Assembly: GCF_000688335.1 (NCBI RefSeq) | Contig: NZ_JHZX01000001.1 | Location: 1,612,001-1,676,000, forward strand | DNA: 64,000 nt | Origin: Sediminibacter sp. Hel_I_10 | GTDB lineage: Bacteria; Bacteroidota; Bacteroidia; Flavobacteriales; Flavobacteriaceae | Direction: 5' to 3' | Shown here: positions 22,195 through 24,851 of the stretch, piece by piece | Layout: every line of letters begins with the position of its first letter | Numbering within the stretch: the first letter of the stretch is position 1 | Position numbers and translations under genes: made by a program | The notes under the pieces: generated by a model | Told to the model about the DNA's origin: nothing | What the model saw: the letters and a program-made list of their open reading frames with translations, nothing else | Database searches by the model: none

Positions 22195-22262
22195 GGGTTT
22201 TATGGCATTTTAATTAAAATCTACCTATCTTTAATGCATAATCCCTCTGATTAATAGCATTA

Positions 22263-22901
22263 ATGCCTACCTCTATAGTAATTGCAGACGATCATCCTTT
22301 AATCCTTAAAGGGTTAAACGATTTTTTAACTGAAAAAAAATACGATGTTCTTGCCAAGGCCAAAAATGGCAAAGACGCTCTAACGTTAATCAAAGCTCAT
22401 GAACCTGAAATAGCGGTTTTAGACATACAAATGCCATTTCTCACAGGTATTGAAGTCGCCAAGCAGTGCAAAGCATCTGATATTTCAACAAAAATCATTC
22501 TTATTACCTTCGAGAAAAGTGAAACTATATTTAAGGAAGCCATGTCTAATAGTAATACCTATGGTTATATTCTAAAAGAGTTTGCTATTGAAGAAATCGA
22601 GAACTGTATTGCTGAGGTTTTATTGGGACGCCGGTATTCTAGTCCTGAACTACTTGACTACCTTGAAAAAAAAGAGATTCCAGCAGAATTAAAGACACTT
22701 ACCGACACCGAATTGAAAATTTTGAAATTGGTCTTGGAGAATAAAACCGCCAAAGAAATTGGAAAATTGCTGTTTTGCTCTGATAGAACCGTTGAAAAAC
22801 ATAAAAGTCATATTAGAACAAAACTTAATTTATCTTCAAAAATGCAGAGCATGGCCATTTATGCAAAAGAATATGAAGCATTTTTATTAAAATATACGTA
22901 G
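22263..22901 (+). CDS. LuxR/NarL-family response regulator, orphan
   Basis: This is a two-domain regulator of 212 residues. The receiver domain has the acidic pair Asp9-Asp10, the phospho-acceptor Asp54 (VLDIQMP), Thr82 and Lys105, so it should be phosphorylatable. The C-terminal GerE-type helix-turn-helix starts at LTDTELKILKLVLENKTAKEIG and includes the recognition helix DRTVEKHKSHI. No histidine kinase is encoded nearby. The stop codon lies inside an 18-bp palindrome (22894-22911) that recurs at 23216-23233. Such palindromes are what NarL-type dimers bind, so it likely controls the two units that follow. Confidence 0.93.
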   Translation: MPTSIVIADDHPLILKGLNDFLTEKKYDVLAKAKNGKDALTLIKAHEPEIAVLDIQMPFLTGIEVAKQCKASDISTKIILITFEKSETIFKEAMSNSNTYGYILKEFAIEEIENCIAEVLLGRRYSSPELLDYLEKKEIPAELKTLTDTELKILKLVLENKTAKEIGKLLFCSDRTVEKHKSHIRTKLNLSSKMQSMAIYAKEYEAFLLKYT

Positions 22902-22911
22902 AACTACGTAT
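22894..22911. promoter_or_regulatory. Palindromic operator copy 1
   Basis: ATACGTAG-AA-CTACGTAT has perfect 8-bp arms around a 2-bp centre. It overlaps the stop codon of the response regulator and the TTG of the following promoter. A second copy, identical in both arms, lies 322 bp downstream. Confidence 0.8.
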
Positions 22912-22941
22912 TGACATCCTCGAATTAATTGTGCAACTTTG
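22911..22941 (+). promoter_or_regulatory. Promoter of the first small RNA-like unit
   Basis: TTG (22911-22913) and CAACTTTG (22934-22941, one mismatch to TAnnTTTG) are separated by 20 bp. The palindrome abuts the TTG, where a class II activator would sit. Confidence 0.55.
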
Positions 22942-22945
22942 TAAG

Positions 22946-23016
22946 GCTATTAATTCTTTAGGGAGAATTATATTTCTGAAACCTGAATCATTCTTTTGAT
23001 TCGGGTTTCTTTTTTT
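22946..23016 (+). ncRNA. Candidate small RNA 1 downstream of the response regulator
   Basis: The predicted transcript is about 70 nt. It begins GCTATTAAT and forms a 7-bp hairpin TAATTCT/AGAATTA (22951-22970) with loop TTAGGG. It ends in a 13-bp terminator hairpin (22978-22990 with 22997-23009) followed by seven Ts. No open frame of useful length exists. It could instead be only the 3' untranslated region of the regulator gene, but the promoter-like sequence and the second copy downstream argue for a separate RNA. Confidence 0.55.
22978..23016 (+). terminator. Strong intrinsic terminator of response regulator / small RNA 1
   Basis: A 13-bp stem with one G-U pair and a 6-nt TTCTTT loop is followed by CTTTTTTT. 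Confidence 0.93.
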
Positions 23017-23215
23017 GTTATTTTTCAAAAGCACAGATCATAAAACCACCCAATCTCTGCTCATGCGCTTTACCGCTATTTCAAGTGCAAATCGCATAAA
23101 ACTTAGGAAGCTAAGAACATCTTGAGAGCATAATTTCACGAAATCTTCTAAAAATAGAGTTTTTAAAATTAATAAATAACTGTATTTCAGTATTTTAGGT
23201 TTTAAAATTTGAAAT

Positions 23216-23233
23216 ATACGTAGTTCTACGTAT
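23216..23233. promoter_or_regulatory. Palindromic operator copy 2
   Basis: ATACGTAG-TT-CTACGTAT is identical in both arms to copy 1, with the centre as its reverse complement. Matches extend outward on both sides (AAT before, TG after). Confidence 0.8.
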
Positions 23234-23263
23234 TGTGGCGCATCTATATAATGTCGAAATTTA
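23233..23263 (+). promoter_or_regulatory. Promoter of the second small RNA-like unit
   Basis: TTG (23233-23235) and GAAATTTA (23256-23263, two mismatches to TAnnTTTG) are again 20 bp apart. The layout relative to the palindrome copies that at 22911-22941. Confidence 0.45.
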
Positions 23264-23269
23264 CACTAA

Positions 23270-23352
23270 GCTATTAATCATTCTTAGTTTTTATCCTTTA
23301 TGAATTAAGGGATTTTAAAGCCTTAGATTTCAAACCTCTAAGGCTTTTAATA
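23270..23352 (+). ncRNA. Candidate small RNA 2 or structured leader
   Basis: The unit begins with the same GCTATTAAT as the first one and ends in a perfect 11-bp hairpin (23317-23327 with 23337-23347, AAAGCCTTAGA arms). The T run after it is short (TTTT then AATAAAAA), so termination may be partial. A 36-codon frame begins 38 bp after the hairpin. It may therefore be a second small RNA, an attenuated leader for that frame, or both. Confidence 0.5.
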
Positions 23353-23384: not shown

Positions 23385-23495
23385 ATGGAAACCATGAAAG
23401 ACAAAGACAGCATTACCAATAAAACATTTATTGTAGGCTTAATCTTAAGTGCCGTTTTAATTATCGCAATAAATGTTCTTGTTAATTTCTTTTAG
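23385..23495 (+). CDS. Small single-pass membrane protein, 36 aa
   Basis: The frame begins METMKDKD, with a second possible ATG three codons in, and then has one strong hydrophobic helix (residues 14-36: TFIVGLILSAVLIIAINVLVNFF). It ends right after the helix. A terminator follows at 23520. No family is recognised. Its position after the second palindrome-driven unit suggests control by the response regulator. The small size keeps confidence moderate. Confidence 0.5.
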   Translation: METMKDKDSITNKTFIVGLILSAVLIIAINVLVNFF

Positions 23496-23576: not shown

Positions 23577-24851
23577 TTACATCTCTAAGGCACGCTTAAC
23601 ATCACCATCCATCAATAATTCTGTTGGATTTTCAAGTGCTTCTTTAATGGCTACTAAGAACCCTACAGATTCTTTACCATCAATAATTCTATGATCATAA
23701 GACAGCGCTACGTACATGATAGGTCTAATTTCTACGTGACCATCAATAGCAACAGGACGCTCTACAATATTATGCATTCCTAAAATTCCACTCTGTGGTG
23801 GGTTAATGATTGGGGTGGATAGCATCGATCCAAAAACACCTCCATTAGAAATGGTAAATGTTCCTCCAGTCATTTCATCAACAGTAATTTTACCATCGCG
23901 AGCTCTTAGTGCCAAACGCTTAACTTCTGCTTCAACACCTCTAAAACTCAAGTTTTCTGCATTTCTAATAACAGGTACCATTAATCCTTTTGGCCCTGAT
24001 ACCGCAATACTAATATCACAAAAATCATAACTTAGCATTTCTTTGCCATCAATCATTGAGTTTACAGCAGGATACATTTTTAACGCACGAACTACAGCTA
24101 AGGTAAAGAAACTCATAAACCCAAGTCCTACGCCATGTTTTGCCTTAAAGTCTTCTTTATACTGCTTACGCAATTCAAAAATAGGTGACATATCTACTTC
24201 GTTAAAAGTAGTTAGCATGGCTGTAGTATTCTTAGCTTCTACCAAACGCTCTGCGACTTTACGTCTCAGCATTGACATTTTACTTCTAGACTCTCCACGT
24301 TTTCCACCACCAGGTGTTCCCATAGAAGGCTTAGCATTTACAGCATCGTCTTTTGTAATGCGTCCGTCCTTTCCTGTCCCAGAAACTGAAGAAGCATCCA
24401 TACCTTTTTCTGCTAATACTTTTTTAGCTGCCGGACTAGCCGTGCCAGAAGCATAAGTTTTCTCTGCAGGATTATCCGCTTTTGCATGATTCTCCTCATT
24501 TGGTGTAGCCTTTTGGTCTTTAGCAACGTCTTCTTCTGCGCTAGAGTTGCCACCTTCATCTCCTCCTTTATAAGTATCTGGCTCATCTTTTGCCGCATCG
24601 GTACTTGGCTTTTCGGCACTAGTATCAATTAAGCAAACCACTTGACCTACTTCTACCGCATCTCCTTCTTCAGCTTTAAGGGTAATTATCCCACTCGCTT
24701 CTGCAGGAAGTTCTAATGTGGCTTTATCGCTATCAACCTCAGCAATTGCTTGGTCTTTTTCTACATAATCCCCGTCTTCTACTAACCATTCTGCAATTTC
24801 TACTTCGGTTATCGATTCGCCTGGCGAAGGCACTTTCATTTCTAGAATCAT
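23577..24851 (-). CDS. sucB: Dihydrolipoyllysine-residue succinyltransferase (E2 of 2-oxoglutarate dehydrogenase)
   Basis: E2o transfers succinyl groups from E1-bound intermediates to CoA in the TCA cycle. The 424-residue protein has a lipoyl domain with the carrier Lys43 ([10 protein letters not shown]), an acidic Glu/Asp/Lys linker (about 78-135), a peripheral-subunit-binding domain ([22 protein letters not shown]) and the acyltransferase core with His387 and Asp391 (DHRIIDG). It is downstream of sucA in the same operon with a 91-bp gap. The E3 gene is not in the window. Confidence 0.96.

Follow-up and report, generated by a model that had tools for sequence, protein, structure and literature searches.

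Background

In Vibrio, the sibling Qrr small RNAs (sRNAs) are activated by one response regulator, LuxO, and feed back on the mRNA of that regulator. LuxO is a sigma54-dependent regulator of the NtrC type, and the Qrr RNAs use Hfq. The Gac/Rsm system has a FixJ-type regulator (GacA), an upstream palindrome, multiple sRNAs with GGA hairpin loops (RsmY and RsmZ), and CsrA/RsmA as the protein partner. PhoP induces both an sRNA, MgrR, and a small membrane protein, MgrB, which inhibits an existing kinase. To our knowledge, trans-acting sRNA circuits are poorly known in the Bacteroidota. FopS and GibS of Bacteroides are paralogous short sRNAs; the fopS genes have a canonical sigma-ABfr promoter and FopS represses mRNAs of SusC-like transporters (PMC11697453). 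Rfp18 of Flavobacterium psychrophilum is described as a conserved sRNA with predicted pairing to protease mRNAs via its third stem-loop (PMC9723704).

The locus described here lies in a 64-kb stretch of the genome of Sediminibacter sp. Hel_I_10 (the window). In many flavobacteria, a response regulator (RR) appears to switch on neighboring sRNAs together with a very small membrane protein, and the RNAs seem capable of pairing with the mRNA of the RR. The complementarity between the RNAs and this message suggests a feedback circuit in lineages without the sensor kinase that is found beside the RR in relatives.

The response regulator and its array

The features of the locus are as follows, in positions of the window.

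22226 to 22233, forward strand: -7-like box of the RR gene, TATCTTTA, called from the sequence
22242 to 22246, forward strand: TCCCT element of the RR leader, complement of the AGGGA loop of unit 1 (in 43 of 81 RR leaders; predicted duplex)
22248 to 22258, forward strand: putative anti-seed TGATTAATAGC in the RR leader, complement of GCTATTAAT(CA) at the 5' ends of the RNAs (enrichment; predicted duplexes)
22263 to 22901, forward strand: NarL/FixJ-type RR (receiver and GerE helix-turn-helix, HTH), an orphan here (Pfam PF00072 and PF00196; alignment)
22894 to 22911, no strand: operator palindrome 1 (palindrome scan, conservation, HTH co-variation)
22946 to 23014, forward strand: sRNA unit 1, with seed GCUAUUAAU, a hairpin with AGGGA in the loop region and a strong terminator (cmsearch R1 33 bits; fold z -6.05)
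23216 to 23233, no strand: operator palindrome 2 (palindrome scan, conservation, HTH co-variation)
23270 to 23352, forward strand: unit 2, a seed-bearing RNA or probable microprotein mRNA leader with a possibly leaky terminator-like hairpin (fold z -3.60; T-run comparison)
23385 to 23495, forward strand: microprotein of 36 aa with a single hydrophobic helix, METMKDKDSITNKTFIVGLILSAVLIIAINVLVNFF (a loose filter gives a similar ORF in 91 of 99 RR loci)

The RR matched the Pfam profiles Response_reg (PF00072, 82.7 bits) and GerE (PF00196, 54.4 bits), and D54, T82, and K105 are invariant across 22 orthologues. It therefore has the receiver with GerE HTH as well as the Asp, Thr/Ser, and Lys residues of the NarL/FixJ type. 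Pfam and the alignment of orthologues agree with the first-pass annotation, which had described a complete receiver (Asp54, Thr82, Lys105) with a GerE domain. It had also placed the stop codon of the RR inside the first palindrome, and the stop is indeed at 22899-22901. The -7-like boxes were called with the Bacteroidetes promoter consensus. Transcription of the RR would be expected to start a few bases past the box at 22226-22233, which would leave a leader of only about 24 nt.

The 18-bp palindrome ATACGTAG-NN-CTACGTAT occurs exactly at 22894-22911 and 23216-23233, the two copies that had been claimed. When up to three mismatches were allowed, there were still just two in the 64 kb; 0.15 are expected and none of 100 shuffles reached two. 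Each palindrome ends in a T that also begins a TTG. The boxes CAACTTTG (22934-22941) and GAAATTTA (23256-23263) each start 20 bp past the TTG, and GCTATTAAT begins 34 and 36 bp past palindromes 1 and 2 (22946 and 23270). All of these positions, including the TTG abutment and both spacings, were reproduced from the earlier description. The genome (4.1 Mb, one contig) has six exact palindromes, and none of the four outside the window array is followed by TTG. Three of those four, with similar flanks, are found in one block at about 3.46 Mb of this genome (L007, positions 2183, 6041, and 7767), and two of these are upstream of ORFs for putative lipoproteins or secreted proteins. The array adjoins odhB (23577-24851).

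An RR orthologue with 60-71% identity was found in all 21 same-genus genomes searched. Behind it, 20 of these genomes have one to four exact palindromes and the 21st has three copies of an altered palindrome, ATACGTAAAGTTACGTAT. The conservation of the palindromes in relatives that keep the RR, proposed earlier as a check, was thus seen in 21 of 21. A relative of the RR is encoded in 418 genomes, and the best 80 named ones were used for comparison of the locus, including Psychroserpens, Gelidibacter, Winogradskyella, Xanthomarina, Mangrovimonas, Formosa, Algibacter, and Tamlana. The layout of the window is common to many of these best 80. Across the family, the RR is present at E<=1e-45 in 122 of 299 Flavobacteriaceae genomes. 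Two public metagenome-assembled genomes titled Algicola, a name read as Pseudoalteromonadaceae, have loci (L040 and L048) that fall inside Psychroserpens in the RR tree; these are probably a name clash or mislabeled records.

The sRNA units and the microprotein

Both units fold better than their shuffles (z -6.05 for unit 1 and -3.60 for unit 2). The hairpin at the end of unit 2 carries a T-run that is short. RNAs of the unit 1 type have GCUAUUAAU, then a hairpin with AGGGA in the loop region, and then a terminator. AGGGAG is invariant in 34 aligned RNAs of this type, and each has one AGGGA loop. A covariance model, R1, was built from 24 sequences. Such a search had been suggested in the first-pass annotation, and at E<=0.001 it found the sRNA in 93 of 299 Flavobacteriaceae genomes and 79 of 236 genera. 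Unit 1 of the window is a weak match (33 bits, below the cut-off) and its genome is outside the 93; its assignment to the family therefore leans on position and shared motifs no less than on score.

The sRNA (93 of 299 genomes) and the RR (122 of 299) occur together in 79 genomes, with an odds ratio of 21 and a Fisher p of 2e-26 on genomes that are related and hence non-independent. The RR was within the stretch fetched (up to 3 kb) in 28 of 30 best-match loci; the other two are L171 and L174. L174 (genome G232) has no RR between an aspartyl protease and odhB and keeps the palindrome and the sRNA. L171 (genome G188) has a strong sRNA copy, with neither an RR-type nor a PAS-LuxR-type regulator in 3 kb.

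In an alignment of 150 matches, which was fitted to the R1 structure and includes some reverse-strand terminator matches, two-sided changes were found in 19 of 21 pairs (338 cells vs. 87 in shuffled data). No Rfam family scored above its gathering cut-off on the sRNA units of the window and the five loci scanned. FopS (RF04319) was rejected as a family for these RNAs; it was matched once, at 32 bits against a cut-off of 56, at L107:4043-4111, off the sRNA units. The R1 matches inspected elsewhere in the window's own genome resemble plain terminators and were set aside. Some Psychroserpens arrays have an extra sRNA unit behind AGGTA-NNNN-TACCT (L010, L015, L029, L054, and L055; imperfect in L028).

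The microprotein ORF of the window starts 32 bp past unit 2. With a loose filter, a candidate ORF of this kind, short and with a single hydrophobic helix and a conserved end (LNILVNFF, LNIVNYFVS, and similar), was found downstream of the RR in 92 of 99 loci, or 91 of 99 once a match judged spurious by eye (L258) is removed. In the window locus and its 80 relatives, the seed lies 34-36 bp downstream of 93 of 128 operators followed by TG. Some of the 35 operators without the seed at that spacing belong to microprotein leaders. By automatic calling, the longest terminator T-run has a mean of 5.67 in 72 inner units vs. 4.07 in 67 last units, which are those before the microprotein ORF (p 5e-8). 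The shorter T-runs of last units fit a read-through of unit 2 into the microprotein, and unit 2 is probably the leader of this conserved 36-aa membrane protein. The claim of two sibling RNAs is therefore altered: the seed-bearing units are conserved, and unit 2 is probably a microprotein mRNA leader and not only a free RNA. The earlier picture of a module of two RNAs is also too narrow, since relatives have one to several units, the RNAs are complementary to the RR mRNA, and no kinase is adjacent.

The T-runs also bear on another explanation, in which the units would be successive attenuated leaders. The RR would then drive only the microprotein, and the upstream copies would be promoter duplicates that have decayed or that serve as decoys and titrate the RR. 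In favor of this, kinase-linked and kinase-less loci share the microprotein as an output, and the terminators before its ORF tend to be weaker, both in unit 2 and in the last units of relatives. RNAs of the unit 1 type, however, retain their seed, loop, and hairpin across many genera through compensatory changes, have longer T-runs, and recur behind other regulators. We consider this explanation unlikely, though it is the one that survives best after a circuit of RR-driven sRNAs.

Predicted pairing with the RR leader

The anti-seed at 22248-22258 ends 4 nt before the RR start codon. Its region is predicted to form an 11-bp duplex with unit 2 and a 10+5-bp duplex with unit 1. ATTAATAGC lies within 60 nt of the RR start codon in 35 of 81 loci, vs. 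0 of 236 control ORFs and 0.1% of shuffles. TCCCT is in the leader in 43 of 81 loci; among the control ORFs it occurs in 2 of 236, and among shuffles in 8.7%. The 236 controls were drawn from the same loci and are therefore non-independent. With an Algibacter-type RNA 5' end, the duplex energy of the RR leaders averages -14.05. Their shuffles average -10.14 and the control ORFs -8.24, so that part of the effect comes from base composition. The RR leader of the window pairs with the first 26 nt of unit 1 at -17.8 kcal/mol and of unit 2 at -14.5 kcal/mol; for either unit, 1 of 236 controls reaches so low a value. With full-length RNAs, unit 1 of the window does not stand out, since 16 of 236 controls pair as well, and unit 2 again has 1 of 236.

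The 7-base anti-seed is missing from the RR leader in 37 of 80 kinase-less loci. In several leaders of the Algibacter clade the seed and loop complements are in reverse order, so no single collinear duplex is possible there. From these matches we infer a Qrr-like feedback of the RNAs on the RR mRNA. Negative feedback is the most likely reading, and activation is the alternative.

Candidate targets beyond the RR were sought with the pattern ATTAATAGC-N1-6-ATG, which has 208 matches in 13 genomes of the genus vs. 46 for the reversed pattern. Few of the 80 sites inspected, out of 86 chosen among the matches listed, are real gene starts. Besides the RR, a desaturase-like gene (2 genomes) and a pectate lyase-like gene (3 genomes), identified by eye, recur among the matches listed, as do two pairs of other ORF fragments. 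These candidates are too weak for any one to be named as a member of a regulon.

The RNAs could instead act mainly via a protein that binds the AGGGA hairpin loop, an ANGGA-like motif, in the manner of Gac/Rsm and not by base pairing. All 34 aligned RNAs of the unit 1 type share AGGGAG, and a FixJ-type RR with palindromes and several sRNAs is the layout of GacA. Against this, there is one loop per RNA, unit 2 of the window has none, and the RR leader holds complements of both seed and loop. In addition, CsrA (PF02599) was not detected in the window's own genome (control positive in 3 of 14), and a CsrA sponge was dropped as the best explanation because of this. Hfq was not detected in this genome either (control positive in 5 of 14). 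An action mainly through protein is improbable, slightly more so than the attenuated leaders, and pairing with the RR message is preferred.

Kinase or sRNA

There are 43 genomes, the window's own included, that are positive for the RR and negative for the sRNA. In 17 of 20 such loci fetched, a histidine kinase precedes the RR. Kinase-linked loci with a palindrome mostly have it directly before the small membrane ORF, with no sRNA. Three of the 80 named loci have the kinase, and all three are without the sRNA. The resulting count covers 100 of 101 loci (L109 was left out). A promoter-linked seed is present in none of the 20 kinase-linked loci, one of which (L246) has a bare GCTATTAAT, while GCTATTAAT is found behind the RR in 78 of 80 kinase-less loci. 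TAATAGC is present in the RR leader of 0 of 20 kinase-linked vs. 43 of 80 kinase-less loci. Since 17 of the 20 kinase-linked loci were picked for lacking the sRNA, the telling side of this comparison is that these loci have the kinase and the others do not. In the unrooted RR tree, a single change separates the kinase and sRNA states (support 99/87, with a bootstrap that had not settled completely), so the 100 loci are not 100 independent cases. The kinase operon may be the ancestral state.

Five complete kinases were read, and the one that was scanned has HisKA_3 and HATPase_c above the cut-off and TPR below it. The kinase is adjacent to the RR in 20 of 100 loci and does not adjoin the RR of the window. 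An orthologue was not found in the window's own genome, which gave four partial matches of 26-34%.

These loci also bear on whether GCTATTAAT is a promoter or initial-transcription element, with its match in the RR leader a coincidence or a second start-site motif. It does sit at the expected transcription start with fixed spacing. The same kind of operator and promoter occurs in kinase-linked loci without it (0 of 20), however, and its complement is enriched by the RR start codon together with the complement of the loop. We give this explanation little weight, less than an action through protein, and retain GCTATTAAT as the putative seed.

Reading of the palindromes

The palindrome copies within one locus often change together, for example TACGTAACGTTACGTA three times in L076. 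When loci were sorted by the seventh base of the half-site, all 13 TACGTAA loci had the residue pair QN in the HTH tail, and 0 of the 49 TACGTAG loci did. These 62 loci, with these two half-sites, come from 65 with a scored operator, three without a parsed HTH having been omitted. On the receiver-domain tree, the seventh base changes seven times and gives three supported independent pairs. All three are concordant, a number that does not suffice for a formal sign test (p 0.25). The joint change of palindrome and DNA-binding domain is good evidence that the palindromes are read by the RR. Exchange of the whole HTH domain in place of point mutation could give the same pattern, and the likely link between RR and palindrome holds either way. 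That the palindromes are read by another regulator, such as a second LuxR-type protein, with the adjacent RR not the activator, has in its favor the locus that keeps palindrome and sRNA without an RR (L174) and the 23 matches to the RR in the window's own genome, but half-site and RR HTH residues change together with no exception in 62 loci, and this explanation is very improbable.

Other regulators and wider use of the operator

The same RNA was also found behind other regulators, a point missing from the first-pass annotation. In 16 of 17 loci examined, a selected set found via sRNA matches or via the protein itself, TACTCAAWTTGAGTA-TTG lies behind a PAS-LuxR protein, with a seed 34-35 bp further along. 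The one locus that departs from this is that of the relative in the window's own genome (47%), which is without such an operator. The seeds are GCTATTAAT, GCTATTTAT, or, in Psychroserpens, GTTATTAAT. The one PAS-LuxR copy scanned has a strong GerE match and PAS_3 just below the cut-off, and the PAS-LuxR leaders of the loci examined have no clear anti-seed. A third regulator, with two copies in one genome (L194), has TTACGGnnnnCCGTAA and then the sRNA. Its palindrome, TTACGG/CCGTAA, is perfect in only one of the two copies. The protein is receiver-like by eye, with no Pfam receiver match. In L112, an RR-sRNA and a PAS-LuxR-sRNA stand in tandem. Found behind several regulators, the sRNA behaves like a shared output. 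The PAS-LuxR-sRNA locus of Psychroserpens (L210-L214) adjoins a gene that by eye resembles dihydrolipoyl dehydrogenase; with odhB beside the RR array, both loci are next to genes for 2-oxoacid dehydrogenases.

Another 20 palindrome-TTG sites off the array were chosen by us from six genomes (ten from G235). An ORF of at least 60 aa follows 19 of them, and 18 were scanned with PADLOC models. Four of the 18 matched at E<1e-40 (Septu PtuA/PtuB, PDC-S60, PDC-M64A, and PDC-M49A), one was LmuA-like (1e-12), one had a weak match of PLD type (7.6e-7), and 12 had no match. The sites with defense models (L380, L382, L388, L392, L394, and L396) have the exact operator and TTG upstream of the ORF. Comparison ORFs gave weak matches in 2 of 20 (best 1.6e-5); the numbers are small, the comparison ORFs are shorter and unmatched, and PADLOC includes candidate systems. 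A link between the operator and anti-phage defense genes in other genomes is suggestive only.

The sRNA may then be a portable output cassette behind at least three regulators, each with its own palindromes, so that signals converge on one pool of RNA. The RR branch would have lost its kinase and gained RNA feedback on the RR mRNA, and in some genomes the operator would precede anti-phage defense genes. We offer this broader reading tentatively, as one a little more apt to fail than to hold.

A proposed circuit

The RR circuit itself is the best explanation and in our judgment a probable one. An RR dimer would bind the TACGTAG-NN-CTACGTA palindromes and activate promoters that overlap them, with the palindrome center 44-46 bp before the expected start; we infer activation and not repression. 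Promoter 1 would give an sRNA of about 70 nt. Promoter 2 would give a related seed-bearing RNA, part of which would terminate and part read through into the 36-aa membrane microprotein, whose role is presumptive. The seed GCUAUUAAU and the AGGGA loop (GGGAUU in unit 2) would pair with the short RR mRNA leader by the start codon, and this would most likely lower RR synthesis; the sign of the feedback and any other targets are likewise presumptive. Relatives have a block of RR, palindrome, and microprotein with an adjacent histidine kinase and no sRNA, and this clade has lost the kinase and has the sRNA units. Conservation, RNA structure, the linkage of operator and HTH, the exclusion of kinase and sRNA, and seed complementarity are supported by sequence comparison.

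The core of the first-pass annotation, that the RR acts via the palindromes on sibling RNAs, is well supported comparatively by conservation, co-variation of operator and HTH, compensatory hairpin changes, co-occurrence, and the lack of an Rfam family above threshold. It was incomplete in three points: the probable leader role of unit 2, the extent of the module, and the occurrence of the RNA behind other regulators. The module had been called one not known to its author from flavobacteria, and no description of the sRNA or the array was found in the open-access literature searched. The locus offers an sRNA family that is conserved, structured, and linked to regulators, for which a target and an operator are predicted, and that is amenable to tests in culturable marine flavobacteria. 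Related bacteria with the same regulator, with the kinase and without the sRNA, are a natural comparison, and kinase-linked and kinase-less relatives make it directly testable how a two-component system survives the loss of its kinase. The conserved membrane microprotein adds a second output that has apparently not been studied.

Comparison with known systems

Within the phylum, these RNAs resemble FopS/GibS in being paralogous short sRNAs; the sigma-ABfr promoter and SusC-like targets of FopS set it apart. Rfp18 is likewise a conserved sRNA of the Flavobacteriaceae; its predicted pairing uses a third stem-loop, and the RNAs here have two hairpins. The resemblance to PhoP with MgrB and MgrR, a regulator that induces an sRNA and a small membrane protein (here predicted), is one of layout, and the kinase is absent from the locus here.

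Qrr/LuxO would be alike in its several sibling sRNAs under a single RR, of which the arrays and the linkage of operator and HTH are seen here by comparison, and in the feedback on the RR mRNA, which is predicted here. It differs in that the RR here is of the GerE type, Hfq was not detected in the window's own genome, Rfam gave no match, and a microprotein is under the same operator. GacA with RsmY/RsmZ shares the FixJ-type RR, the upstream palindrome, the multiple sRNAs, and the GGA-containing hairpin loops. In contrast to that system, there is one GGA loop per RNA here and CsrA/RsmA was not detected in the window's own genome; the RNAs are encoded directly behind the RR and are complementary to its leader.
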